27,387 nucleotides of DNA from positions 1 to 27,387 of the IMG/VR virus record IMGVR_UViG_3300006916_000295; one strand, given 5' to 3'. The stretch's first letter is position 1, and every line of letters starts with the position of its first letter. The position numbers and the translations under genes are program-made. The notes below the pieces were generated by a model. It was not told the origin of the DNA, searched no databases, and worked only from the letters and a program-made list of their open reading frames with translations. Below are positions 15,431-27,238 of this stretch, piece by piece. The stretch comes from a virus.

Positions 15431-15459
15431 ATTATGGCCGCAACGCCGCTTTCTGTCAA
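15431..15459 (-). promoter_or_regulatory. Late-operon promoter
   Basis: On the minus strand TTGACA (15459-15454, perfect -35) is followed after exactly 17 bases by CATAAT (15436-15431, five of six). It is the best sigma70-like promoter in the window and heads the 15-kb terminase-to-ejection operon. The spacer contains CGTTGCG (15445-15439), one base off the CGTTGCA motif of the other phage promoters, so it may be under the same control. Confidence 0.72.
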
Positions 15460-16635: not shown

Positions 16636-16841
16636 TCGCCTACCTTTTCCGCAATTTGTCCGCATTTGACGCATACGTCGTGGATATATCTCTTAACAAC
16701 CAATAAGTCTCTCAAAGCAGAGGCACTCACACCACGCATTCCACTGAATGTATAGCCAGATGGCTCCTCACTGTATCTCGGCTCAAACCTATGGCCATGT
16801 ATTTTGCAATCATGCTTAAACATCACTCACCCACCTTTTCC
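16630..16841 (-). repeat. Imperfect 21-bp direct repeats flanking the 63-residue gene
   Basis: Bases 16630-16650 and 16821-16841 match at 18 of 21 positions. On the minus strand each copy holds GAAAAGGT (ribosome site), the last codons EKVGE, the TGA stop and the overlapping ATG of the next gene. The three mismatches are all silent third-codon changes. One gene fits exactly between the copies, as expected for a cassette moved by recombination at the junctions. Confidence 0.7.
16632..16823 (-). CDS. Small zinc-binding-like protein ending in EKVGE
   Basis: The 63-residue ORF from ATG 16823 has C6/H9 (DCKIHGHRF) and CVKCG near residue 51-55. This is a possible two-pair zinc site framing a helix (ASALRDLLVVKRYIHD). 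Its last five codons encode EKVGE, the same as the end of the preceding 28-residue ORF with three silent differences. Its boundaries are therefore a duplicated junction. GTG 16826 is an alternative start. Function unknown. Confidence 0.55.
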   Translation of the reverse strand: MFKHDCKIHGHRFEPRYSEEPSGYTFSGMRGVSASALRDLLVVKRYIHDVCVKCGQIAEKVGE

Positions 16842-16909
16842 AAATCCTTGCCCGCCAGTATCTCTGCGGCCAGTTTGTCATACTGTTTTTGTGCTTGGGT
16901 TTTGTTCAT
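16823..16909 (-). CDS. 28-residue mini-gene
   Basis: ATG at 16909 overlaps the preceding TAA (TAATG) and its TGA overlaps the next ATG (TGATG). The peptide is a charged helix (MNKTQAQKQYDKLAAEILAG then KDLEKVGE). The double overlap and good internal codons support translation. Its tail supplies the AAAAGGTGGG ribosome site for the next gene. Function unknown. Confidence 0.48.
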   Translation of the reverse strand: MNKTQAQKQYDKLAAEILAGKDLEKVGE

Positions 16910-17133
16910 TACTTCCTCACTCTCCAAATGCGTACATTCTCACCATCCTCTTGCAGGCGGCTTACCAGTTTAACACCGTGCTTGCGGCCAGTGGTTAGAA
17001 TGTTGCCCCGTTTTTCCTCTGGCGCAAGAAAACTATCACCAACCTTTAGCCCTCGCAGAAAGCCAGACAATGAGCCTTCTTTCCTGCCACGCCCCTCTGG
17101 CGCGACTTCAATTCCTTTTTCGATTTTATACAT
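16909..17133 (-). CDS. Small phage protein, first gene of the CGTTGCA-controlled operon
   Basis: The 74-residue protein (MYKIEKGIEVAPEGRGRK...) has a central 'LKVGDSFLAPEEKRGNILTT' and a C-terminal 'ENVRIWRVRK'. This resembles, to my knowledge, a small family frequent in phages (DUF7303-like: VGDSF..P..KR......A.K.G.K...R....VRVWR). It is probably a single compact beta domain of unknown function. The start is well supported by AAAGGAGAAACGTT before ATG 17133 and by the upstream promoter. Confidence 0.65.
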   Translation of the reverse strand: MYKIEKGIEVAPEGRGRKEGSLSGFLRGLKVGDSFLAPEEKRGNILTTGRKHGVKLVSRLQEDGENVRIWRVRK

Positions 17134-17158
17134 AACGTTTCTCCTTTGTTAGAACCCT

Positions 17159-17202
17159 TTTATGCAACGGATGCCGCATAAGGTCAAGCATTAATTGCAA
17201 CG
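17159..17202 (-). promoter_or_regulatory. Promoter with two CGTTGCA operator-like motifs
   Basis: On the minus strand TTGACC (17187-17182) and CATAAA (17164-17159) are separated by 17 bases. CGTTGCA occurs at 17169-17163, overlapping the -10 box, and at 17202-17196, just upstream of the -35. Binding at the inner copy would block RNA polymerase. The transcript would start near 17152 and read the small-gene operon. Confidence 0.6.
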
Positions 17203-17227
17203 AATATAAAAAAACCACGCTAAGAAT

Positions 17228-17264
17228 AAAAAAAAGACCGCCGGGAACAAACAACCGACGGTCT
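17228..17264 (-). terminator. Rho-independent terminator (minus strand)
   Basis: On the minus strand AGACCG-T-CGG and CCG-C-CGGTCT form a 9-bp stem with one mismatch and an 11-base loop, followed by eight T residues. It lies about 30 bases after the 57-residue ORF and separates it from the promoter of the next operon. Confidence 0.7.
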
Positions 17265-17294
17265 AGTTGGGAGAGGTCATCATGCACAAAAAAC

Positions 17295-17468
17295 CTATTG
17301 AAACACCATCTGCGCTAACGCCGTTGCGCTTATTGGCCTTCCATCCAGAATGAAGCCCGTTTTCTGGGTGTAGCGGATACGCTTGCCGTAAATCGCCTTT
17401 AGGCGCTCGGTAAACGTCATACCTTCCCAGATTGGCAGGTTGTAGGATTCTTCTGTAAGCTTTTGCAT
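17295..17468 (-). CDS. 57-residue small protein, unknown
   Basis: ATG 17468, preceded by AAGGTAGAG, opens a 57-residue ORF (MQKLTEESYNLPIWEGMTFT..., ending ISATALAQMVFQ). The 'GMTFTERLKAIYGKRIRYTQ' part is basic and helical. It is followed after about 30 bases by a terminator and sits beside the repeat-rich origin candidate, so it is a stand-alone unit. Short proteins next to origins can be regulators, but nothing in it proves a DNA-binding fold. Confidence 0.55.
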   Translation of the reverse strand: MQKLTEESYNLPIWEGMTFTERLKAIYGKRIRYTQKTGFILDGRPISATALAQMVFQ

Positions 17469-17540
17469 TTCTCTACCTTACCCGGTTGTTTCTTATTTGC
17501 AACAGAAAAGCCCTCCAAAAAGCAAGAAAACAGACTTCAA

Positions 17541-17880
17541 TTGAAATGGGTCAGAATTCAACGGTCTATTTTGAAATAGAAACTGTTATAAAACAATACT
17601 TTACTTACAAATTCAATATTTCAATATAATATAATAATAATAATATATAACGCGCGCGTGAGATTTCTCCCCCGTTCTATACTAGACCCCCCATATTTCA
17701 ATGAAATGGGCTTTTATTTATAAATAGCAATAACTTACGCCGTTGAAATGGCCGTTGAAGTGCTTGAATTTCAAAAGTTAACAAAACCTTAACAGCAAAA
17801 AAGGGATTCTGCGCAAACGGAACCCCCTGAAATATTGAATTATAGCCCAAGCTATTGTTTTATAAAGCGTATGATTTCAA
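17541..17880. other. Candidate replication origin (iteron-like repeats, AT-rich)
   Basis: The 416 bases from 17469 to 17884 hold no convincing gene. Within them the 7-mer TTGAAAT or its complement occurs exactly at 17541, 17571, 17618, 17695, 17743, 17768 and 17874, with near copies at 17702, 17752 and 17827. Two form palindromes: ATTTCAATGAAAT (17695-17707) and TTGAATTTCAA (17764-17774). Between them lies a very AT-rich run (about 17610-17650, TATAATATAATAATAATAAT) followed by CGCGCGCG. Clustered iterons plus an unwinding-type AT tract beside the primase gene are the usual makeup of a phage origin. Confidence 0.6.
17797..17826 (-). terminator. Rho-independent terminator after the primase gene
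   Basis: On the minus strand GGGGTTC (17826-17820) pairs with GAATCCC (17809-17803), one G-T pair included, with a 10-base loop and then six T residues (17802-17797). It ends the regulator-primase transcript within the origin candidate, so transcription stops before most of the iterons. Confidence 0.7.
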
Positions 17881-17884
17881 AGTG

Positions 17885-19948
17885 CTAAATTGAAAAATAA
17901 GTAACCCCTTGTTTTTCTTCAATTCTTATTTCATCGGCTTCAATCAAGTCATTAAGCACTTCTACCCGTCGCATACGTTTCAAGAATTGCGTCTTGCGGG
18001 TTAAATCGCTTTTGGAAATCGTGCCAGCCGTTTTAATAATCTCTCTAACCCGAACATATTCGGCCTGCGCTTCATTGTCTGATAGCAGCCCGGCAAAGTC
18101 CATAATGCAGTTGTTGGAATACGAAACCACCTTAATAGCAGCATTCACATCCTGAATACCGATGGTGTCATCCTCGCATATGGTAAGGGCTACCTTTTCC
18201 ACATGCTCAGCACAACGCGCATAAAGTGCACTTAACGGATATTGCGCCTCGCTAACCATCTTATCCATGTCGTTACGGTACTTATCAAATATATCCCACG
18301 CTTCCGGCGTAAACTTCACCACAACGGGAACGGCCAAGCCGCTATACGGCTCGTATTTACGCTGTGACGCAATCTCGCGTATTTTTGAGATAAGCCATGC
18401 AGGCGGCTCTTTCTTGCTTTTATCGTATGGCTGCCGCAACCCTCTGTCATGTGTGGCCATAACCAGCCAACGGTTTAGAAAGCCATCAATAACCTCACTG
18501 CTGGAACATGCCTCACGAAAGCGCTCTAAAACAGTGGAGCCGAGGCAGCAAAAATGCGGCTCTACAATATCAATCGTAGGATTCTTTTTGCTATCGGCAT
18601 ATTCCCTGCCCTTTAAAACGCTACTGGCGCAAGAGAATGTCTTGATAATATAGTCAATAATCTCCCGCTGATGCGTCCCTGCATTACGGTGGCTGGTATT
18701 AGACAGAAACCTACCCATTTCATCCATCACCCATATTGCCACCCTGCCCCTATCATTAAGCGCACGTAGAAACCCGGTGCCTGATGTAGGCTCACCCATA
18801 AGCTGTTCATCCATTTCACATTCGCGAATAAGCTTTCTCAGGCAGGCTTGCGGATGTTCTTTACCGCCACCTGTAGGGGCAAGTGACATCGCAAGCAGAT
18901 TGGTTCTAAGGCCTGTTTTGCCTTCGACTACATGACCTTTCAGCATACCAACAAAAGTTAGCGCAGCGGCAAGGGAAAGAATAGGCTGTGGTCTAATGGC
19001 GCTGGCAGTAATCCAGTCGGCAATTTCACCCACTAAGCCATGCACTGAGAGTGGCTCGTTTTCTTGCTGCGCTTCCCGCTTATTGCGTTCATCCAGCGCC
19101 TTTATATAGGACAAATCCACCATAAAGCCGCCGCTTTCGCTTTTAGCCATGTGAACCCAGCCATTTTGCTTGGCCATGTGGATGATAGTGCCAATGGTCA
19201 CGCCGTTATTCGTAAAGCTACGCCATACAGCCTGCGCTTCATTATGCACATAGCGGCTGCCTGCCTTGCGGCTCCAGCGATGCCACAAATCGCAAGCGGC
19301 ATCGCCAAACTCATCACGCAAAGCCATGCCAACGCTTATCCAATCATCACGCGAGCAATCCGAGCTAATGAAATCAAGCATGTCCTCAGCATCAGCCAGC
19401 TCAATCTTTTCAAATTCAGACAGGTTATAAGTGACTGGCGAAACCTTGCGCACAGGGCGCGGGTAAAGCGCGTCCATCAGCTTATTAAAATCAGGGCTGA
19501 GGATTGGTAAATCCACACCATCAAGCAAGCCAACGCCATCCATCCAGATATAAGGCTCGCCCGTTTTGCGATGCGGGCTAGGCGGGATGGTGGTCAATCG
19601 CTTATGCGATAGCAGTTCTACAATCGGGCTTTTATCATCTTTGCGTTTCCAATTTGTGCTGGCCTCGCCGTTATATTTGTAAAAGGCTGTAAAGCCCTTA
19701 CTGCCCTGCTTCCTTACTGGAGTTTCGCCTGCAAGATGATAGATGCGCTCGCCTTCATCACCATCTATATCAATATCAAGGCCGATAACGCCGCTAACCT
19801 CGCCGCAAACCAAGGCATATTCATTACCTGACCATTGATAGACCTCATCGCCGGGCAGCTCATTAAAGTATCGGCTCCACTCAATCAATGGAATCCCCTT
19901 GCGCAGTGGAACCACGCAAAGACCCGCCTCCCTGAACTTATCAAACAT
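17885..19948 (-). CDS. Bifunctional primase-polymerase with helicase-like C-terminal domain
   Basis: The 687-residue protein has three parts. Residues 1-160 are an AEP prim-pol domain: FREAGLCVVPLRKG, the metal motif GLDIDID (56-62) and TIPPSPHRKTGEPYIW (120-135), the typical third motif. Residues about 187-265 form a PriCT-type helical domain (DDWISVGMALRDEFGDAACD, then TIGTIIHMAKQNGW). Residues about 300-640 look like a DUF3987/primase-helicase ATPase with LAPTGGGKE as Walker A (356-364) and VAIWVMDEMG as Walker B (403-412). The C-terminus (about 640-687) looks like a winged helix. It probably primes and unwinds at the adjacent origin. AGGAGG lies before ATG 19948; the regulator gene's stop overlaps this site. 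Confidence 0.85.
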   Translation of the reverse strand: MFDKFREAGLCVVPLRKGIPLIEWSRYFNELPGDEVYQWSGNEYALVCGEVSGVIGLDIDIDGDEGERIYHLAGETPVRKQGSKGFTAFYKYNGEASTNWKRKDDKSPIVELLSHKRLTTIPPSPHRKTGEPYIWMDGVGLLDGVDLPILSPDFNKLMDALYPRPVRKVSPVTYNLSEFEKIELADAEDMLDFISSDCSRDDWISVGMALRDEFGDAACDLWHRWSRKAGSRYVHNEAQAVWRSFTNNGVTIGTIIHMAKQNGWVHMAKSESGGFMVDLSYIKALDERNKREAQQENEPLSVHGLVGEIADWITASAIRPQPILSLAAALTFVGMLKGHVVEGKTGLRTNLLAMSLAPTGGGKEHPQACLRKLIRECEMDEQLMGEPTSGTGFLRALNDRGRVAIWVMDEMGRFLSNTSHRNAGTHQREIIDYIIKTFSCASSVLKGREYADSKKNPTIDIVEPHFCCLGSTVLERFREACSSSEVIDGFLNRWLVMATHDRGLRQPYDKSKKEPPAWLISKIREIASQRKYEPYSGLAVPVVVKFTPEAWDIFDKYRNDMDKMVSEAQYPLSALYARCAEHVEKVALTICEDDTIGIQDVNAAIKVVSYSNNCIMDFAGLLSDNEAQAEYVRVREIIKTAGTISKSDLTRKTQFLKRMRRVEVLNDLIEADEIRIEEKQGVTYFSI

Positions 19949-19956
19949 AGCGCCTC

Positions 19957-20115
19957 CTAATTGTTTTTATTTTTTAAGGCTTGCTCAATAAGCAAGGTAA
20001 TTTGCCCCGAAATGGTGCGGTGTTCCTTGGCTGCAATTTCCCTGACCTTCTTTAATGTCTGGCTTTCAATAAACAAATGAATGCGCTGCTTCGCCTTTAT
20101 TGTCTTTGCTTCCAT
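19957..20115 (-). CDS. Ribbon-helix-helix regulator (Arc/CopG-like)
   Basis: A 52-residue ORF: MEAKTIKAKQRIHLFIESQT then LKKVREIAAKEHRTISGQIT and LLIEQAL. A short strand (RIHLFI), helix (LKKVREIAAKEH), turn and helix (SGQITLLIEQAL) are exactly the Arc/MetJ layout. Such proteins bind DNA as dimers and often repress their own promoter. It begins the operon containing the primase, whose ribosome site overlaps its stop. Likely role: control of replication transcription from the divergent 20.12-20.23 kb region. Confidence 0.75.
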   Translation of the reverse strand: MEAKTIKAKQRIHLFIESQTLKKVREIAAKEHRTISGQITLLIEQALKNKNN

Positions 20116-20138
20116 ATTTTTTCTGCCTTTTCTTATTT

Positions 20139-20185
20139 TGTGGGTTGACTACAACACACAACCACACTAGAAAGGCAATGTCAAA
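20139..20185 (+). promoter_or_regulatory. Divergent promoter/operator region between primase and recombination operons
   Basis: On the plus strand TTGACT (20145-20150) and TAGAAA (20168-20173) are 17 bases apart and read toward the 20233 gene. On the minus strand a perfect TTGACA (20184-20179) points at the regulator gene, but its -10 is poor. An imperfect inverted repeat GTGGGTTG / CAACCAC (20140-20165) covers the rightward spacer and is a candidate operator for the ribbon-helix-helix protein. Downstream, ACGACA-rich copies recur at 20202 and 20223, 21 bases apart. Confidence 0.5.
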
Positions 20186-20232
20186 CAGACAAAACCTAAA
20201 AACGACAAACCATAGAAGAAAGACGACAGACT

Positions 20233-20601
20233 ATGACTAACGACAAAGAAGAACAGCTTATTTGGGAGCAATTAATCTCCAAACAGGCGGCTTATAATGA
20301 AGCAAAAAAGATTGCTGAAAAAGCAAAATCTGAAGCCGATAAAATCAAATTTGAATTAGAAGAACTAGAACAAGCCGCCAAGGATTATATGCTAGGCAAC
20401 GGCGTTGTGGATTCTGAGCATTTCTCGCTGCGTGTAAGCGAGGCGGTTATTGTGCCAGATATTGATGCGCTGCCTGATGAATATATCCGCATCAAAAAAG
20501 AGGCCAATAAGCAGCTAATTAAAGCAGCGCGTCCACAGGCTAACTGGTACGGGGTGGAGAAACGTTATAACTTACAAGTGAAAGGTGAGAAGGTAATATG
20601 A
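20233..20601 (+). CDS. Gp157-like recombination-module protein
   Basis: The 122-residue protein has a long N-terminal coiled coil (ISKQAAYNEAKKIAEKAKSE, about 15-34). It then has a beta segment HFSLRVSEAVIVPDIDALPD, EYIRIKKEANKQLIKAA and a closing YNLQVK. This 'long coil, then ...P.EY.R.K...K..IK.A' order is that of siphovirus Gp157-like proteins and some Gam-like proteins, often linked to phage recombination genes. Biochemical role is uncertain. It is the first gene of the rightward operon and overlaps the 59-residue ORF. Confidence 0.62.
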   Translation: MTNDKEEQLIWEQLISKQAAYNEAKKIAEKAKSEADKIKFELEELEQAAKDYMLGNGVVDSEHFSLRVSEAVIVPDIDALPDEYIRIKKEANKQLIKAARPQANWYGVEKRYNLQVKGEKVI

Positions 20602-20781
20602 TGGAATTAATTATGCGTTACTTAAATTGCGAAGCTGACAGGCTTCGCATGATAATTGATAAATACTATATAGATGGCGAGTGGCACTATGAAAAAATGG
20701 ATGAAGTTAGTAAATCGCTATATACCAGAATGAGTGCGTTTGAAGAAATAGCAAAATATTTAAGAGAGGTAATATGATGGA
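20591..20781. repeat. 15-bp perfect direct repeats bracketing the 59-residue gene
   Basis: AGGTAATATGATGGA is found at 20591-20605 and again at 20767-20781, a period of 176 bases. Each copy contains the ribosome site, the ATG of the following gene and the stop of the preceding one. Recombination between copies would remove the 59-residue gene and leave a perfect Gp157-like/Sak4 junction. Confidence 0.85.
20598..20777 (+). CDS. 59-residue cassette gene, unknown
   Basis: ATG 20598 (a second ATG follows at 20601) overlaps the stop of the Gp157-like gene, and the TGA overlaps the next ATG. The protein is helical (MMELIMRYLNCEADRLRMII, then DKYYIDGEWHYEKMDEVSKS and LYTRMSAFEEIAKYLREVI). No family is recognised. 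It is exactly bracketed by a 15-bp direct repeat carrying ribosome site, stop and start, so it looks like a removable insert in an otherwise conserved gene order. Confidence 0.6.
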   Translation: MMELIMRYLNCEADRLRMIIDKYYIDGEWHYEKMDEVSKSLYTRMSAFEEIAKYLREVI

Positions 20782-21514
20782 CTTTGTAGAAACCAAGGCA
20801 GGGCAATCAAAAGAAATGCCTGCGAAAATGGCGATATATGCTGAGCCTAAAATTGGTAAAACAACCTTTTGCGCACAAATTCATGATGTATTCTTTATCA
20901 ATATCGAAGGTGGCCTTGACTATCTGGGCAATAAAGTGCGCTCAACTCCGAAGCTAAACAGCTATGATGAAGTTATTGGATGGCTTCGCCATATTTATGA
21001 AAACGATGATTTTACGGCTGGACGCATTGCGATTGACTCGCTGGACTGGCTGGAAACATTGGCGCAAAAAAAGCTTATTAAGGAGCATAACGCCAAATCA
21101 ATCGTTGACCCTAATGTCACAGCTTTTGCCTATTACAAAGGGGTTATGGAGGCATCAGAAATGGCGGCCAAGGTAATCGGCTGGCTTGATGCTATTTATG
21201 AAAAGAAAGGTATTCCGGCCATTGTTATTGCACATAGCGAGGTAAAGACAATCGACCTGCCTAATCAAGAACCTTATTCGCGCCATCAGCTAAAGCTTTC
21301 TAAATGGCTGGGCGCAAAAACAAATGAATGGGCAGACCTTATTTTATTTGCCGCATTTAAGTTTCATGTTGCTGATAAGGGGAAAACCATCAGCCAGCCG
21401 CAGCGTGTATTGCTGGCTGGGGATGATGTTTCTTTTGTCGGAGGTGGCCGCATGAAACTACCAAAAGAACTGCCACTAGATTATAACAAGCTTAAAGAGG
21501 AGATTACAAAATGA
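20774..21514 (+). CDS. Sak4-like / AAA_24 recombination ATPase
   Basis: The 246-residue protein has Walker A AEPKIGKTT (23-31), a beta strand plus acidic segment FFINIEGGLDYL (about 39-50), and Walker B-like RIAIDSLDW (about 79-87). A later strand is GIPAIVIAHSEVK (about 149-161). This is the RecA-like core of phage Sak4/AAA_24 nucleotide-binding proteins that promote single-strand annealing with an SSB partner. The next gene encodes just such a candidate. Short spacing (ATGA overlap) supports joint function. Confidence 0.78.
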   Translation: MMDFVETKAGQSKEMPAKMAIYAEPKIGKTTFCAQIHDVFFINIEGGLDYLGNKVRSTPKLNSYDEVIGWLRHIYENDDFTAGRIAIDSLDWLETLAQKKLIKEHNAKSIVDPNVTAFAYYKGVMEASEMAAKVIGWLDAIYEKKGIPAIVIAHSEVKTIDLPNQEPYSRHQLKLSKWLGAKTNEWADLILFAAFKFHVADKGKTISQPQRVLLAGDDVSFVGGGRMKLPKELPLDYNKLKEEITK

Positions 21515-21921
21515 GCATGTATGGATTTGAAACAACCGATGACATTCAATTAGATAAAGTCGGCTTGCCGATTGGCACCTATAAGGCCATGATTGTTAGC
21601 GAAGAGCCTTATGCAAAAGAGGGTAAGCAGCTCGGCGTTGTCGCAGAGTTTGAGGCCGTTGAAGGTATCAATAAAGGGCAGAAGGGAAAGGTGTGGTTTT
21701 TGACTACGCACCCAAACGAAATGACTGCTAACATTGCTCGTCAGCGCATCAAGCGCATTGCCGATGCGACAGGCAGCGCCGTGAGTAGCAGCGCGCCACT
21801 GAAAGGCCGTGTTTTGACTATTGAGGTGGTTAAGCAGAAAAATAACCCTGATTATACTGAAGTTAAGCGGTTTTTGCCAGAAAATTATCAGGCAGAAACC
21901 AATGATGAACCGCCTATGTAG
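21511..21921 (+). CDS. ssDNA-binding protein (DUF669-like)
   Basis: The 136-residue product starts MSMYGFETTDDIQLDKVGLP and continues with IGTYKAMIVSEEPYAKEGKQ, GVVAEFEAVEGINKGQKGKV and a later KGRVLTIEVVKQKNNPDYTE. These are the strands of DUF669-type phage SSBs, which have an OB-like fold. The tail (QAETNDEPPM) is acidic, as in SSBs that recruit partners. It overlaps the Sak4-like gene by four bases, a common SSB-annealase pairing. Confidence 0.72.
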   Translation: MSMYGFETTDDIQLDKVGLPIGTYKAMIVSEEPYAKEGKQLGVVAEFEAVEGINKGQKGKVWFLTTHPNEMTANIARQRIKRIADATGSAVSSSAPLKGRVLTIEVVKQKNNPDYTEVKRFLPENYQAETNDEPPM

Positions 21922-21930
21922 GGGTGAATA

Positions 21931-23583
21931 ATGCAGTTTACGCTTAGAGATTATCAAAAAGCGGCTGTAGATGCTGCCATGTCCTTTGTGAAATATCGCT
22001 CAGGGCATGGCTACATCACTGCGCCGGGTGGCAGCGGCAAGAGCATCATGATTGCCAAGCTGGCAGAATTGTTGGTTGATATTGGCTTTCAGGTTGTGGT
22101 TTTGGCTCGCAATGAAAAACTGCTAACACAAAACAAGGCGAAGCTATCGCCTTCTTATCAAGAAAGGGCAGGCATTTACTGCGCAGGGCTGGGCTTTAAG
22201 GAAGATGATAAACTGATAACAATTGCCAGCGCGCAATCCATTTATGGCGTTACGCTGCCAAAAATAGAGGATAGGGAATTAATAGCGCTGGTTGATGAAT
22301 GTGATGAAATTAACCCTGATAGCGAAGGCGAAACACAATACTGGCAGTTCTTCCGCAACAATGGCAACCCGCGCATTATCGGCTTTACTGCCACACCATT
22401 TAGACTGAGTAGCGGCGCTATTTCATGGGGTGAAGAGATTATACGCATTCCGTTAGATGCACTGATAAAAAAAGGCCATATAGTGCCACCAGTAAACAAG
22501 GCCAGCGAGGTTGACCTTTCCAGCGTCCCGGTTACCAGCCTTGGCGATTACAGCGCACCGCACCTTGATGAAATTTATGATGACCCTGATTTGCTAAAAG
22601 TCAGTATGGATTTGCTGCTAAAATATGCACATGACCGCCATCATGTTCTAGTATTCTGCCAGTCATTAAAGCACTGCGACGCCGTTACCAATGCGCTTGA
22701 ATATGCGAATGAAGGCGTAAGGGTTGTGAGTGGCGACACACCAAAGGACGAGCTTTCTGATATTTTAGAAGACTTCCAGCGCGGCTGTTTTAAGTTCCTT
22801 GTTAACTGCCAGCTTTTGACCGTTGGTGTGGATTTGCCATGTGTAGATATGATTGCGTTATTCATGGCCACAAAGAGCAAGCGCAAGTTTGAGCAAGCGG
22901 TTTATCGTGGTACGCGACCATATCCGCAGAAAGATAATTTCTTATTGCTTGATATGGGAAACAATCTTTATGAGCATGGCGCGCTTGGTAGCCCGATACG
23001 CGATAAGAAGAAACGCAAAGAGCAGTTACCGCAGCAAGGCAAGATATGCCCGCAGTGCGAAACATGGATGGAGCAAGCACTAGCTAGAGAATGCCCGGAT
23101 TGCGGCTTTCAGTTCCCAGAATCAGAGCTGGCGAAGGTGCGCCATGCTTATGAGGCAGATAATACTAGTGTTGCCTACCATTCAGAAGAAAAGATTATTC
23201 AGCGCTATGAGGTTTTTGACGTTACCTATAAGCAGAAGAAGTCAAAAAGCGGCAATGAAATGATTGTCGTAGAGTATCATTGCGACTATGGCAAATATGG
23301 CACTATTGCAGAATTTCTGTTGCCACACCATGAAAGCGATTTTGTGCAAAGTAAGGCGCGCAGTTTCTTTAGTCAGCGGGGCATAGAGCTGTTCGGTGAT
23401 TTGCGTGGGTTTCCCATGATTGAGTTGCTTGACAAGGCCGAAAATTCAAAGAAGCCGACTAGCATCATTGTTGACCATAGCGAAGAATGGCCACGGGTGA
23501 AGTTTGTTTATTTTGATGAACCAAAAAGCGAGTCCGTAATGGATAGCAGCGAGGTGCTGGATGGCGATGAAATCTTGTTCTAG
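21931..23583 (+). CDS. SF2 DNA helicase with C-terminal zinc ribbon
   Basis: The 550-residue protein shows LRDYQKAAV (5-13, Q-like motif), Walker A APGGSGKS (31-38), motif II VDECDE (121-126) and motif III GFTATPF (151-157). The second RecA domain contains VLVFCQS, VVSGDTPKDE, LTVGVDLP and FEQAVYRGTRPY (about 319-330, motif VI variant). A treble-clef-like zinc ribbon follows at about 372-396 (CPQC...CPDCGFQFP). Related phage helicases remodel forks or act in recombination. Motif II is DECD rather than DEAH/DEAD; motif VI has YRGTRP instead of QRxGR. A C-terminal domain (about 420-550) of unknown fold follows. Confidence 0.85.
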   Translation: MQFTLRDYQKAAVDAAMSFVKYRSGHGYITAPGGSGKSIMIAKLAELLVDIGFQVVVLARNEKLLTQNKAKLSPSYQERAGIYCAGLGFKEDDKLITIASAQSIYGVTLPKIEDRELIALVDECDEINPDSEGETQYWQFFRNNGNPRIIGFTATPFRLSSGAISWGEEIIRIPLDALIKKGHIVPPVNKASEVDLSSVPVTSLGDYSAPHLDEIYDDPDLLKVSMDLLLKYAHDRHHVLVFCQSLKHCDAVTNALEYANEGVRVVSGDTPKDELSDILEDFQRGCFKFLVNCQLLTVGVDLPCVDMIALFMATKSKRKFEQAVYRGTRPYPQKDNFLLLDMGNNLYEHGALGSPIRDKKKRKEQLPQQGKICPQCETWMEQALARECPDCGFQFPESELAKVRHAYEADNTSVAYHSEEKIIQRYEVFDVTYKQKKSKSGNEMIVVEYHCDYGKYGTIAEFLLPHHESDFVQSKARSFFSQRGIELFGDLRGFPMIELLDKAENSKKPTSIIVDHSEEWPRVKFVYFDEPKSESVMDSSEVLDGDEILF

Positions 23584-23914
23584 GCGACCCACCCGCAGGA
23601 AGGTCGAAGATGCCATCCAGAAAGAATTAATTCGTTGGATAAAAGAAACCTATCCGCATGTGATGGTTTTTGCCACGCGCAATGAAGATAGTTATAAGCG
23701 CTCAGATGAAATTGAGGCTGGCTTGCCTGATATTATTATTAGATGGCCACATGGTGACACACGATACTTTCTTTATTTTGAGGTGAAAACAAAAGCCGGA
23801 AGGCTTAGCGCGTCACAAAAAAAATGGGCAGAAAAAGATAGATGCGCTAATGAGCTATATGCTGTTGGCTATGGCTTAGAAGACTGTAAGAAAGAAATAG
23901 CGGCGCTACTGTAA
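23561..23914 (+). CDS. VRR-NUC domain nuclease
   Basis: A 117-residue ORF with the full small-VRR-NUC pattern: VEDAIQKELIRWIK (15-28, with the N-terminal acidic residue), AGLPDIII (53-60, Asp57), and YFEVKTKAGRLSASQKKW (72-89, Glu74/Lys76, then 'G..S..Q'). These are Mg-dependent structure-specific nucleases, often paired with an SF2 helicase in phage operons. The start is uncertain: ATG 23561 sits in the end of the helicase gene behind GAGGTG. ATG 23567 is also possible. Confidence 0.83.
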   Translation: MAMKSCSRRPTRRKVEDAIQKELIRWIKETYPHVMVFATRNEDSYKRSDEIEAGLPDIIIRWPHGDTRYFLYFEVKTKAGRLSASQKKWAEKDRCANELYAVGYGLEDCKKEIAALL

Positions 23915-23919
23915 AAACA

Positions 23920-23952
23920 CGTTGCAATATGTTTCTGATGTGGTACGTTGCA
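23920..23952 (+). promoter_or_regulatory. Paired CGTTGCA operator-like motifs before the methyltransferase gene
   Basis: CGTTGCA occurs at 23920-23926 and 23946-23952, 26 bases apart, in the 62-base gap upstream of the methyltransferase. A weak promoter (TTGCAA with TACGTT, 16 apart, and a TG before the -10) may overlap them. The same motif pair occurs at two other promoters in this window. Confidence 0.5.
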
Positions 23953-23976
23953 AGGGCAGAATTAAGGGGGTAAGGC

Positions 23977-24729
23977 ATGACATATAAGCGCAAAGAAACT
24001 ATAGGCGACTGCGAGCTGTATCTGGGCGATTGCTTGAGCGTTATGCCTACGCTGGGTAAGGTTGATGCGCGGGAGGGTTGGGCAATCCTAACTGACCCGC
24101 CTTATGGGATAGGGGCTGATAAAGGTCATACTGGTGCATCTAGTTTTAATGGTTCAAAAAAAATACAGCATAGAAGTTATAAAGGTGGATGGGATAGTGA
24201 ACGACCATCTGAGGCTATACAGTTATTCGCATCCATAAAATGCCCTCAAATAATATGGGGGGGGAATTACTTGGCTGATTTACTTCCTGCAATGGGTAAA
24301 TGGCTATGGTGGGATAAATGCCAAACAATGCCCACTTTCGGTGATGGAGAACTTGCTTGGACAAACCTTAAAGGCGCAACCCCACGAAAATTTACCCTTG
24401 CTAATAACCAGTTATTCGCTGACAGAGTGGAGAGGTTTCACCCTACTCAAAAACCGCTTAAACTCATGCAATGGTGCATAAACCACCTTCCCGACAACTG
24501 CGACACCATCTTAGACCCCTTCATGGGCAGCGGCACAACGCTAGTGGCTTGCGCGAAAATGGGCAGAAAGGGAATAGGCATAGAGTTAGACCCTGATTAC
24601 TTCGAGATAGCTTGCAAACGTGTAGAGGATGCTTATCGCCAGCCGGATTTATTCATAGCACCGCCGGAAAAGCCAGAAATGGAGCAGGGCGAGTTTTTAA
24701 CCACAAAGCTTGCAGAAGGTGATTTGTAA
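23977..24729 (+). CDS. Site-specific DNA methyltransferase (beta class, DPPY)
   Basis: The 250-residue enzyme has catalytic TDPPYG (39-44), HPTQKP (155-160) and the SAM site DPFMGSGTT (180-188), with GIGIELDPDYFEIA after it. Catalytic motif before SAM motif is the beta-class order. DPPY favours N6-adenine, though N4-cytosine cannot be excluded. Between them lies IIWGGNYLADLLPAMGKWLW (about 92-111), common in phage orphan methylases. No restriction partner is adjacent; the upstream nuclease is the VRR-NUC type. It probably protects phage DNA or regulates it. AAGGGGGT sits before the start. Confidence 0.88.
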   Translation: MTYKRKETIGDCELYLGDCLSVMPTLGKVDAREGWAILTDPPYGIGADKGHTGASSFNGSKKIQHRSYKGGWDSERPSEAIQLFASIKCPQIIWGGNYLADLLPAMGKWLWWDKCQTMPTFGDGELAWTNLKGATPRKFTLANNQLFADRVERFHPTQKPLKLMQWCINHLPDNCDTILDPFMGSGTTLVACAKMGRKGIGIELDPDYFEIACKRVEDAYRQPDLFIAPPEKPEMEQGEFLTTKLAEGDL

Positions 24730-24743
24730 AACAGGAGCATAAA

Positions 24744-25541
24744 ATGACAATAGAATACTTTTTCACCGATGACGGCCAGTTTGATTACGAAACCATCTAC
24801 AATCCAAACAGCGTAGAGCAGATGTATGGCTATAAGGCTGTTGGCTGGAATACTGATTTCAGCATGACAGGATGGTGGCAGGGACAGAATGTCTTTGCGC
24901 TGACCACAGACAGCCCGTTATACGACCCAAACAACGGCAGGCCGGATGCTCACTCTCAGGCAATACAGTTGCAATACACATGGGAGTCCGGGGATGAAAT
25001 GCCGTGGCTGTGGACAAATAGGGGGCAGGATTACACTTTCACGATTGAGGGCGACCTTTCCGTGCCCGTGAGTTGGGGAGACAACCTACAGCAAGGCTTA
25101 ATGCTTACCCGGTTTGGGGATGTCAGCAGCGGCCAAAAGCTATGGGTGCAATTTAGAATGTTCGACAATCTATACCCCGGCAGGCCGATTGATATTTTCA
25201 GCGACCCTCACACAAATTATGAGGATATTGTGGTTAATATCGACATCGTGAAAGACAGTTACAATCAGTTTGTGAGCTTTGCCAATTCGGCAGAGATTGA
25301 AACCGATGCGTTTTCAGACGTGCGGCATTTTGAAGCGAATATGAGTCGCCAGCAGTTTACAGACTTGCTGATTCATGCGGAGCAAACGCTGGGCATAGAT
25401 ATACAGAATGAATCTGGCTACTGGTCTTTGGTTCAGGCCGGGTTTAGCCCAGAAATGGCCAGCGGGTTTCCGCAATGGGGCATTGGCGACACAGGTGCCA
25501 TGCAGGCGGCAATGGATAACATTAGTGTGTGGGGTGAATAA
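24744..25541 (+). CDS. Unknown 265-residue Trp-rich protein
   Basis: The ORF starts 14 bases after the methyltransferase with ACAGGAG. The product has about eleven Trp and many Asp/Gly residues; the first two-thirds read as beta strands (DGQFDYETIYNPNSVEQMYG; LQYTWESGDEMPWLW near 85-99; GDLSVPVSWGD). A helical C-terminus follows (RQQFTDLLIHAEQTLGIDIQ, about 208-227). No signal peptide and no known catalytic motif are seen. It might be a carbohydrate-binding or virion-associated protein, but nothing proves this. Confidence 0.7.
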   Translation: MTIEYFFTDDGQFDYETIYNPNSVEQMYGYKAVGWNTDFSMTGWWQGQNVFALTTDSPLYDPNNGRPDAHSQAIQLQYTWESGDEMPWLWTNRGQDYTFTIEGDLSVPVSWGDNLQQGLMLTRFGDVSSGQKLWVQFRMFDNLYPGRPIDIFSDPHTNYEDIVVNIDIVKDSYNQFVSFANSAEIETDAFSDVRHFEANMSRQQFTDLLIHAEQTLGIDIQNESGYWSLVQAGFSPEMASGFPQWGIGDTGAMQAAMDNISVWGE

Positions 25542-25687
25542 TGAAGCGTGTATTGGCGGCGCTGGCTTTCACATCCTTCCTTTTTGCCATTAAGGCGGAA
25601 GCTGATGGCGATATGCAGGACGCTATGCTAAGCGTGGGGCATGCTATATTTCTATGGCTTGCCGCAGTACAGTGGGATTATTTTTAA
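25541..25687 (+). CDS. 48-residue exported/membrane small protein
   Basis: ATG 25541 overlaps the previous TAA (TAATG). Residues 1-20 look like a signal peptide or membrane anchor (MKRVLAALAFTSFLFAIKAE). The end (HAIFLWLAAVQWDYF) is a second hydrophobic segment. A two-helix membrane mini-protein is likely. A lysis or host-envelope role is possible, but only hydrophobicity supports it. Confidence 0.5.
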   Translation: MKRVLAALAFTSFLFAIKAEADGDMQDAMLSVGHAIFLWLAAVQWDYF

Positions 25688-25701
25688 GAGGAACAAAACC
25701 A

Positions 25702-25947
25702 ATGACATACGGAGCACAAATAGCACCTGAAACAGCCCCGGCAAAGGTTCTGAAATACCTGCAAGGGCTGGATAAACCACCCGCAAGGGCTAAGATTGTG
25801 GCAGATTGCGATTATGTAAGTAGTGGCGCTTTAGGGTGTGCTTTGGCTGCGTTGGTGAAATATGGATATTTAGCACGTCCGCGCTGCGAATGCTGCGGCG
25901 CTATTGTTTATGCCTTGACCGATGAGGGTAGGGCATGGTCTGAGTAG
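25702..25947 (+). CDS. Winged-helix-like small protein
   Basis: I start at ATG 25702, behind AAGAGGAAC, rather than at 25654, whose extra residues overlap the previous gene. The 81-residue protein has helices (ETAPAKVLKYLQGLD; AKIVADCDYVSSGALGCALA; LVKYGYLA) and a wing-like strand with CECCG (62-66, Cys62, 64 and 65) leading to YALTDEGRAW. The order helix-HTH-wing is like the small winged-helix proteins of phages. It may bind DNA or a metal. Confidence 0.6.
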   Translation: MTYGAQIAPETAPAKVLKYLQGLDKPPARAKIVADCDYVSSGALGCALAALVKYGYLARPRCECCGAIVYALTDEGRAWSE

Positions 25948-26098
25948 AAATCTCACACTCACGCGCTACGTCTGCCACAAAGCGGCAAATAATGTCTATT
26001 TCTCTTACAGTGATTTCATGCAAAAAGTCGCTACGCCTTAGATAAGGCTGGGCTGGCAACTCAGGGATAGGCGCATCAATATTTATGCGCGGCTCCAT
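25901..26098 (-). CDS. Small protein downstream of the repressor
   Basis: A 65-residue ORF whose ATG overlaps the repressor TAA (TAATG), which supports it. It starts MEPRINIDAPIPELPAQPYL and has a helical part (EITVREIDIICRFVADVARE). Its last 47 bases overlap the end of the rightward gene on the other strand, an uncommon convergent overlap in this otherwise compact genome. No motif is recognised. It may be a repressor partner or an anti-repressor. Confidence 0.5.
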   Translation of the reverse strand: MEPRINIDAPIPELPAQPYLRRSDFLHEITVREIDIICRFVADVARECEISTQTMPYPHRSRHKQ

Positions 26099-26307
26099 TA
26101 CACCAATTCCAAGCCCTTGTCATCGGCCAGCTTTACCAATGCAGTCCATAGCTCCAACGCTGTTTTGTCGCGTGTTTCGTGCCTTTGTGTTACAGCTCGC
26201 ATGATGGTGCTGCGTGGTACGCCTGCGTATCTTTCCAACGCATAGTAGCTAATGCTATGTTCACGCATGTTGCGGCTGATTTTTCGTAGTGTATCTGTCT
26301 TATCCAT
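26098..26307 (-). CDS. HTH repressor (Cro/CI-like, 69 residues)
   Basis: I take ATG 26307 (MDKTDTLRKISRNMREHSIS...) rather than upstream alternatives, because a promoter fits just before it. The HTH spans about residues 21-40 (YYALERYAGVPRSTIMRAVT) in the lambda-type Q/Y-A-L...G.P.ST pattern. A second helix bundle (ALELWTALVKLADDKGLEL) ends the protein. There is no separate dimerisation or cleavage domain, so it is Cro-like in size. It reads opposite to the 26401 gene over CGTTGCA motifs, the classic switch layout. The alternative starts at 26331 and 26442 would add residues that overlap the promoter. Confidence 0.75.
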   Translation of the reverse strand: MDKTDTLRKISRNMREHSISYYALERYAGVPRSTIMRAVTQRHETRDKTALELWTALVKLADDKGLELV

Positions 26308-26313
26308 AAGGGC

Positions 26314-26379
26314 AATATAAATGCTTTTTTTCATAAGTGCAACGTTTTTCCTTGCATTGTTTGCAACGCTTGTTATTAT
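26314..26379. promoter_or_regulatory. Divergent switch promoters with CGTTGCA operators
   Basis: Leftward: TTGCAC (26342-26337) and TATATT (26319-26314), 17 apart, with six bases to the repressor ATG, so the mRNA would begin on that codon. Rightward: TTGCAT (26352-26357) and TATTAT (26374-26379), 16 apart, toward ATG 26401. CGTTGCA motifs (minus strand) sit at 26344-26338, over the leftward -35, and 26368-26362, within the rightward spacer. AAGTGCA (26335) and TGCACTT (26379) form an outer inverted repeat. Confidence 0.6.
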
Positions 26380-26400
26380 GCACTTAACAAAGGAGAGAAC

Positions 26401-26613
26401 ATGAAACATGACCCTAACAACAAACACACTTGGCCATTTCACCCGGTTAACGAAATTATGCTGTCAACTTGGCAGAGCTGGGCTGATGAGCCAGATATTA
26501 CTAAGGTTTTGCTGAAACTGTTAAACGATGAGATGGATTTGGCTAATATTCGGCAGGAGATATTACACAGCCGGGATGAATTAGAATTAGCGGAGCCAAA
26601 GGAGGCAACATGA
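26401..26613 (+). CDS. Unknown 70-residue protein, first rightward gene of the switch
   Basis: ATG 26401 follows AAAGGAGAG at ideal spacing. The protein is acidic and helical (MKHDPNNKHTWPFHPVNEIM, then KVLLKLLNDEMDLANIRQEI and SRDELELAEPKEAT). No motif is recognised. As the first gene of the operon opposite the repressor it occupies the place of lambda cro, but it has no clear HTH. Confidence 0.62.
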   Translation: MKHDPNNKHTWPFHPVNEIMLSTWQSWADEPDITKVLLKLLNDEMDLANIRQEILHSRDELELAEPKEAT

Positions 26614-26979: not shown

Positions 26980-27083
26980 AACACGAAACACTTGCAGAGC
27001 TTATGCTTGTCATTGGCTGCGTTTTACTGGCGCTGGCGATTATTAGCGGATGGTTTGCTTTATTGCCGGGGATTGTATTATGA
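26976..27083 (+). CDS. 35-residue membrane mini-protein
   Basis: ATG 26976 overlaps the previous TGA, and its TGA overlaps the next ATG. The peptide MKHETLAELMLVIGCVLLAL then AIISGWFALLPGIVL is essentially one membrane helix. Tight overlaps on both sides support translation. Function unknown. Confidence 0.5.
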   Translation: MKHETLAELMLVIGCVLLALAIISGWFALLPGIVL

Positions 27084-27238
27084 ACGCTCGCAAAATAGGA
27101 AAGCTGCGTCGTATTGTTAACCAGCACTTTGCCAACAATGGCAGCGATGTGAAATTGCAGGATATTATTGACAACGCTTGGCATCAAAAAGAGTTATTTG
27201 AGGCACTAAAGAAGGAAATGGAGAAACAAAATGGCTGA
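27080..27238 (+). CDS. 52-residue helical basic protein
   Basis: I start at ATG 27080 in an ATGA overlap; the longer start at 27050 lies inside the previous gene. The sequence (MNARKIGKLRRIVNQHFANN, then GSDVKLQDIIDNAWHQKELF and EALKKEMEKQNG) is helical with a basic N-terminus, suggesting nucleic-acid or protein binding. No motif is recognised. Confidence 0.55.
   Translation: MNARKIGKLRRIVNQHFANNGSDVKLQDIIDNAWHQKELFEALKKEMEKQNG

Follow-up and report, generated by a model that had tools for sequence, protein, structure and literature searches.

The virus record IMGVR_UViG_3300006916_000295, whose 27,387 bp constitute the window analysed here, carries six exact copies of the heptad CGTTGCA, arranged as three direct (head-to-tail) pairs in three promoter gaps, and on balance we favour the view that each pair serves as a composite operator for one and the same regulator, most likely a 69-residue helix-turn-helix (HTH) protein of Cro/C1 type that the phage itself encodes. 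This view is based on the heptads being exact and asymmetric, two to a promoter region and in the same orientation, with none elsewhere in the completed genome. Pair A (minus strand) lies at 17196-17202 (A1, the upstream site) and 17163-17169 (A2), pair B (plus strand) at 23920-23926 (B1) and 23946-23952 (B2), and pair C (minus strand) at 26362-26368 (C1) and 26338-26344 (C2), with spacings of 33, 26 and 24 bp, respectively. All six positions agree with the original prediction, made from the letters alone, that this word marks three intergenic promoter regions.

A near-identical contig (IMGVR_UViG_3300007345_000017, or G001; 34,377 bp, with a 123-bp terminal repeat) matches the window at 99.97-99.99% in two pieces, wrapping round, and adds 6,867 bp to give a complete circular phage genome of 34,254 bp; the complete-genome scan proposed earlier thereby became feasible. 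The circle holds the same six exact copies as the window and no others, which extends to the whole genome the earlier statement that the window has no further copy; near-identical fragments hold subsets of them (two on the contig of L003, four on that of L082). The enrichment expected of copies with one mismatch did not appear (87 matches against 101.6 by chance), so the signal lies in the exact word only.

As originally argued, the placement of the copies matters more than their number, which is ordinary because dinucleotide shuffles of the window give a mean of 5.13 by chance. The placement statistics of CGTTGCA in the circle, headed SIGNIFICANCE, use hand-curated genes, by which 1,843 of the 34,254 bp are intergenic DNA and 5.0% of the 7-mer positions are intergenic. 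All six copies are intergenic, in same-strand pairs within 45 bp, and are confined to 3 of the 11 gaps of more than 20 bp between genes; CGTTGCA is the sole 7-mer of the genome with more than three paired intergenic copies. When the sequence was dinucleotide-shuffled gene by gene and gap by gap, and every 7-mer composed of three or more different letters was counted, six paired intergenic copies arose in 0 of 400 and 0 of 3,000 shuffles, with a maximum of four both times, and a statistic free of annotation, in which all six copies of a 7-mer are paired, likewise gave 0 of 3,000 with a maximum of four. Rather than many exact copies inside genes, the outcome that the original prediction held against itself, coding sequence contains none, against 5.0 +/- 2.0 expected from synonymous shuffles (zero in 2 of 400); these shuffles covered 56 coding sequences, omitted gene 26976, counted overlapping genes twice and entered the coding sequence 27082-27238 two bases off (its true start is 27080). 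A crude longest-open-reading-frame caller marks gaps A and C as coding, probably through an open reading frame (ORF) at 17126-17287, which runs through a strong terminator, and an upstream-extended HTH ORF (26098-26442).

Could six copies at their expected number have been paired by coincidence? The copy number does equal chance, one-mismatch copies are not enriched, and a looser measure, which asks for at least six paired copies and allows unpaired ones besides, was reached in 90 of 3,000 shuffles. The placement, set against any 7-mer in both series of shuffles, nevertheless makes coincidence the least credible explanation we weighed, as does the comparison with TerL-related stretches, in which an all-paired word (at least four copies) at two or more places occurred in 0 of 41 (671,731 bases; all stretches of L004-L081 of at least 10 kb, which at 10-21 kb each are shorter than the 34-kb circle, and with 7-mers of fewer than three different letters omitted). 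Of the single repressor originally proposed for the three regions, one DNA-binding specificity is well supported by the placement, the shuffles (0 of 3,000) and the coding depletion; that the regions share a regulator is highly likely, and that this regulator is the small HTH protein appears likely.

Region A is the gap 17134-17294, which follows a strong terminator and precedes a leftward series of small genes, the first of which (16909-17133, minus strand) encodes 74 residues with no family. The intrinsic terminator upstream of pair A (17227-17264, minus strand) consists of a 10-bp stem and then a U run (folding energy -16.6 kcal/mol, z -4.84, equalled by 0 of 200 shuffles), with a loop of 10 that exceeds the limits of the consensus terminator/promoter scan. 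A1 lies 62 nt before the start codon at 17133 and A2 29 nt before it, A2 overlapping the -10 CATAAA (17164-17159) of a weak candidate left-operon promoter, TTGACC-17-CATAAA (17159-17187, minus strand; score 7.5), while an alternative -10, TATATT (17208-17203), abuts A1. Region B, the gap 23915-23976, precedes the gene of a DNA methyltransferase (23977-24729, plus strand; N6_N4_Mtase, Pfam PF01555 2.6e-23, phrog_67 6.6e-47), and both hexamers of its candidate promoter, TTGCAA-16-TACGTT with an extended -10 (score 7.4), overlap heptads: the -35-like TTGCAA overlaps B1 and the extended -10-like TACGTT (23944-23949) overlaps B2, which lies 24 nt before the start codon. Region C (26308-26400) separates the HTH gene from divergent, rightward small genes, the first of which (26401-26613, plus strand) has no family. 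A divergent pair of candidate promoters with shared heptads is present there beside the HTH gene, C2 overlapping the -35 of the candidate HTH-gene promoter TTGCAC-17-TATATT (26314-26342, minus strand; score 9.0) and C1 lying in the spacer of the candidate rightward promoter TTGCAT-16-TATTAT, which has an extended -10 (26352-26379, plus strand; score 9.7). These scores use textbook base frequencies for sigma-70 promoters and are to be read against random places, where the median is 5.5, the 90th percentile 8.0 and the 95th percentile 9.2. The overlap with promoter elements claimed at the outset thus holds for a fair -35 at 26342, but the -10 at 17164 belongs to a weak promoter.

In each of the three regions the heptads point the same way as one gene, whose start codon follows the end of the proximal copy by 29, 24 and 30 nt (A, B and C). 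This arrangement would also suit an activator or middle-promoter box, at which a phage protein would bring RNA polymerase to weak promoters in the manner of lambda CII (with TTGC direct repeats) and T4 MotA. The weakness of the candidate promoters in A and B fits this idea, but the distance from heptad to hexamer differs among the regions, the region C promoters are fair without help, two copies 24-33 bp apart would be unneeded, and co-orientation in three regions arises about one time in four by chance; we regard such a box as unlikely. Methylation offers another way to control these promoters, in which the heptads would be sites of the phage N6/N4 methyltransferase: pair B sits at the methyltransferase gene itself, and 4 of the 6 copies extend to the palindrome TTGCAA. 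Against this, two copies lack the palindrome, the genome contains 12 TTGCAA, 5 of which are intergenic, with no striking avoidance of the word (a two-strand count of 24 where a Markov model expects 28.1), and all 12 of the other methyltransferase relatives examined lack GTTGCA within 110 bp upstream, which makes methylation highly improbable. That comparison started from 16 loci, omitted two cut at contig ends and used crudely chosen starts.

The original prediction also listed a one-base variant, CGTTGCG (15445-15439), in the late promoter. The variant does exist, within the spacer of a near-consensus candidate, TTGACA-17-CATAAT (15431-15459, minus strand), but it is not significant, since by window density a one-mismatch match in 30 bp is expected about one time in ten, and membership of this promoter in the regulon is uncertain. 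The promoter itself is the sole TTGACA-16/18-YATAAT match in the window (chance 0.03), stands ahead of the virion gene block and is a probable late promoter of host sigma-70 type. A single one-mismatch copy, TGTTGCA (17498-17504, minus strand; 29 nt before the start codon at 17468), is likewise uncertain, and neither of the two variants is statistically secure as a site. An RNA element was rejected, no Rfam match in the window reaching the gathering score and the fold z being 0.75 for the methyltransferase leader and -0.84 for region A.

Full conservation across the six sites is limited to the seven heptad positions; among the flanking columns A at -3 is the most constant (5 of 6), followed by several with 4 of 6. 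A dyad operator was rejected because the best partner offset, inverted or direct, is reached by 12.9% of shuffled flanks; C1 alone has an imperfect inverted partner (CCTTGCA-N5-TGCAACG, with 26350-26356), and B2 reads CGTTGCAAGG. With no dyad partner, the unit is the heptad. Seven bases carry 14 bits, so that around 500 copies are to be expected in a 4-Mb bacterial chromosome; a lone site would be too common to address the phage, which a pair could do, and we therefore take the pair, and not the single site, as the functional unit. The earlier description of the operator as half-site-like is borne out, both by the missing dyad partner and by the identity of the heptad with a published CytR half-site.

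That identity keeps a host CytR-type regulator of the LacI family among the rivals; the heptads would be its sites, tying three phage transcripts to a host nucleoside-sensing repressor. In the accessible part of one account (PMC3454398), a published form of the optimal CytR site ends in GC-GTTGCATT, and C-GTTGCA, that is six bases of the octamer and one base of the GC spacer, is identical to our heptad; TTGCAA palindromes are another description of the site, the half-sites may stand anywhere from zero to three helical turns apart, and CytR also binds direct repeats. Of the octamer GTTGCATT, GTTGCA is found in 6 of 6 copies and the final TT is not conserved. The same part of that source describes the natural sites as both weak and degenerate, gives long spacers, unseen in nature, a preference for whole turns, and lists the known direct repeats as short-spaced, whereas the six copies here are exact and their spacings include 2.48 and 2.29 turns. 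CytR works with CRP sites, but the three gaps hold one CRP-like match, with three mismatches (26374), and a CRP-CytR cassette was rejected on the ground that such matches (up to three mismatches) are at background over the window, 89 against 88.2 by chance. Finally, CytR is confined to Enterobacteriales and Vibrionales in what that account covers. A literature search on bacteriophage, CytR and phage promoter found nothing, and one on CGTTGCA with repressor and operator gave no phage title among the matches listed. We consider a host CytR-type reader quite unlikely.

The HTH gene (26098-26307, minus strand; an alternative start at 26334 would give 78 residues) immediately adjoins pair C, as originally stated, and its product is a plausible reader of the heptad, being placed for autoregulation. 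Its end is overlapped by a 65-residue ORF (25901-26098, minus strand) that has no family and is probably co-transcribed. The HTH protein matches the HTH family phrog_4441 at 3.3e-4 and Pfam HTH_26 (Cro/C1-type) at 0.0019 (18.9 bits, under the cut-off of 22), with no match in NCBIfam. Among solved structures, five of its six matches are Lac repressor headpieces (E 0.56-0.93), with Arg37 aligned to LacI Arg22, and the sixth and best is 8fre (E 0.011), no stretch being significant alone; the best Foldseek match of its fold model is a LacI-family protein (E 2.1), and there are weak fold matches to Aca11 and Aca1, all with E >2. In the LacI family, as far as the accessible text of PMC2978694 goes, this Arg goes with G at NT-6, and TGCAACG written as a LacI half-site would put G at that position. 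We treat these LacI and CytR resemblances, of the protein and of the heptad, as leads only. The 81-residue product of 25702-25947 was also folded, as a possible winged helix, and the model was uninformative (pLDDT 47).

If the HTH protein is the reader, one recognition helix would contact each heptad, and two bound units, 24-33 bp apart, would act jointly. In region C the protein would cover the -35 and spacer of both divergent promoters, that of its own gene and that of the right operon, in region B the promoter-like hexamers of the methyltransferase gene, and in region A the promoter region of the left small-gene operon. It would build up early in infection, curb its own synthesis and turn down all these transcripts; alternatively, the methyltransferase and the left operon may be delayed as infection proceeds. 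Such a circuit would serve lytic timing and would not be a lysogeny switch.

Several observations weigh against the HTH protein and paired operators. The fold model of the protein is of low confidence (pLDDT 68) and its family matches are weak. The pair spacings correspond to 3.14, 2.48 and 2.29 helical turns (A, B and C), so that two of the three pairs are off one helix face, which argues against simple side-by-side cooperativity. The candidate promoters of A (7.5) and B (7.4) score between the random median and the 90th percentile, and a stricter consensus promoter scan lists none over any of the six exact heptads. Searches for diverged relatives of the HTH protein gave 0 among 50,697 phage records (E up to 1) and 0 among 40 TerL-related records, the latter search having no positive control, so that its empty result shows nothing; IMG/VR holds near-identical copies only. 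There is also a second DNA-binding candidate, a ribbon-helix-helix (RHH) protein of 52 residues (19957-20115; RHH_5, E 2.9e-5, 24.2 bits, under the cut-off of 26). Proteins of the RHH type recognise short, repeated subsites, and such regulators usually autoregulate, but the promoter gap of this one (20116-20232) lacks an exact CGTTGCA and the protein has no PHROG or NCBIfam match, so we hold it improbable as the heptad reader. The gap itself is divergent and possibly belongs to a separate regulatory circuit.

The phage appears close to an orphan, with almost no sequenced relatives. Neither its portal nor its major head protein matches anything in the 50,697 phage records at E 1e-5, and the primase, the portal and one left-operon gene are met on near-identical contigs only. 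The helicase gave 18 loci, two of them near-identical and the rest at 21-33% identity, and TerL gave 78 loci at 40-52% besides two near-identical ones. Among 50 records of TerL relatives examined, one (G028) has a CGTTGCA pair, and none of its copies is called intergenic. When IMG/VR was scanned for paired CGTTGCA, at least 120 stretches came up, of which 80 loci were kept; among these and one further locus (L208), an intergenic pair was seen in 5 of 81 and two such pairs in 0 of 81, a weak result because the crude gene caller mislabels this phage's own gaps A and C. The sole apparent HTH relative among genome contigs (L230) was rejected as spurious, since it lies inside an 808-residue protein, kinase-like by eye, of a Chloroflexi metagenome-assembled genome.

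The original prediction had further described a lysogeny-type circuit, and this part is not supported. Among 57 curated genes scanned in PHROGs (some also in Pfam and NCBIfam; a 28-residue ORF near 16827-16910 was omitted), none matches an integrase or other lysogeny-maintenance gene, many small products being without a family, and none a CI-like repressor with a cleavage or oligomerisation domain, small HTH and RHH proteins being all that was found. A lysogeny switch was rejected on this basis, and timing control in a lytic phage becomes more likely. The products found comprise a portal, a head protein, both terminase subunits, a DNA-ejection protein with a lysozyme domain and an endolysin, as well as a primase, a Sak4-like annealing protein, a single-stranded DNA-binding-like protein, a helicase, VRR-NUC and the methyltransferase; a spanin and a holin gave weak matches.

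Other features of the genome deserve mention. The gap 17469-17884 (416 bp, 34% GC), beside the primase gene, holds 7 of the genome's 11 copies of ATTTCAA/TTGAAAT together with long inverted repeats, including a 14-nt perfect pair (17610-17623 and 17828-17841), and is a candidate replication origin with iteron-like words. Outside the window, in the late operon, L086:16053-16535 encodes a 160-residue protein with a Thoeris anti-defense 2-like domain (PF11195 4.9e-24, phrog_872 6.2e-64), a candidate anti-Thoeris gene next to the lysis genes, and L086:16825-17022 encodes a 65-residue product that by eye resembles a lipoprotein and weakly matches Cor superinfection exclusion (phrog_1119, E 0.0026).

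As it stands, this regulon is sharply delimited and open to test, and the phage that carries it has scarcely any sequenced relatives. With six exact 7-bp sites in three promoter regions, it is uncommonly well suited to asking how half-sites can give sufficient specificity to so small an HTH protein. It may also tie together the regulation of a small-gene operon, the methyltransferase gene and a divergent operon, in a phage without visible lysogeny genes. More tentatively, we see it as possible but doubtful that an exact asymmetric 7-bp word, set in pairs 24-33 bp apart and not on one helix face, addresses phage transcription through a single-domain HTH protein, that is, a half-site of LacI/CytR type used without the LacI effector domain, its specificity coming from pairing alone; in a bolder variant, the half-site of host CytR would have been borrowed to sense the nucleoside state of the host.

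Several known systems resemble this arrangement in part. Lambda CI/Cro, at OR and OL, likewise has several operators per promoter region and a small HTH regulator beside a divergent promoter pair, and the operator spacings in the lambda record (23, 24, 24 and 20 bp) are near the 24 and 26 bp seen here. However, lambda operators are 17-bp and degenerate, whereas this phage has one exact asymmetric heptad without a dyad partner, and neither a CI-like protein nor an integrase turned up in it; moreover, the operator 7-mers shown for lambda pair just 2 of 10-21 copies, so that lambda operators would fail the pairing test applied here. The CytR regulon shares with our regions the half-site C-GTTGCA, variable spacing and possible direct repeats (the accessible part of PMC3454398), and the structure matches of the phage HTH protein are mostly Lac repressor headpieces (5 of 6, E 0.56-0.93), but this protein, with 69 residues, has no effector domain, CRP sites do not exceed background, and the sites are exact and not weak. 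The anti-CRISPR-associated (Aca) HTH autorepressors are also small phage proteins encoded beside their own promoters, with weak fold matches to ours (E >2); in contrast, three separate transcripts share the site here, and no acr-aca arrangement was recognised, none having been looked for. The sites of lambda CII, P2 Cox and 186 Apl likewise repeat a short asymmetric word, in direct orientation and at several promoters, but with about one helical turn between the repeats instead of the 24-33 bp of this phage. The closest known kind is thus a phage repressor regulon, from which this one differs in that its exact asymmetric heptads stand in direct pairs with variable spacing.

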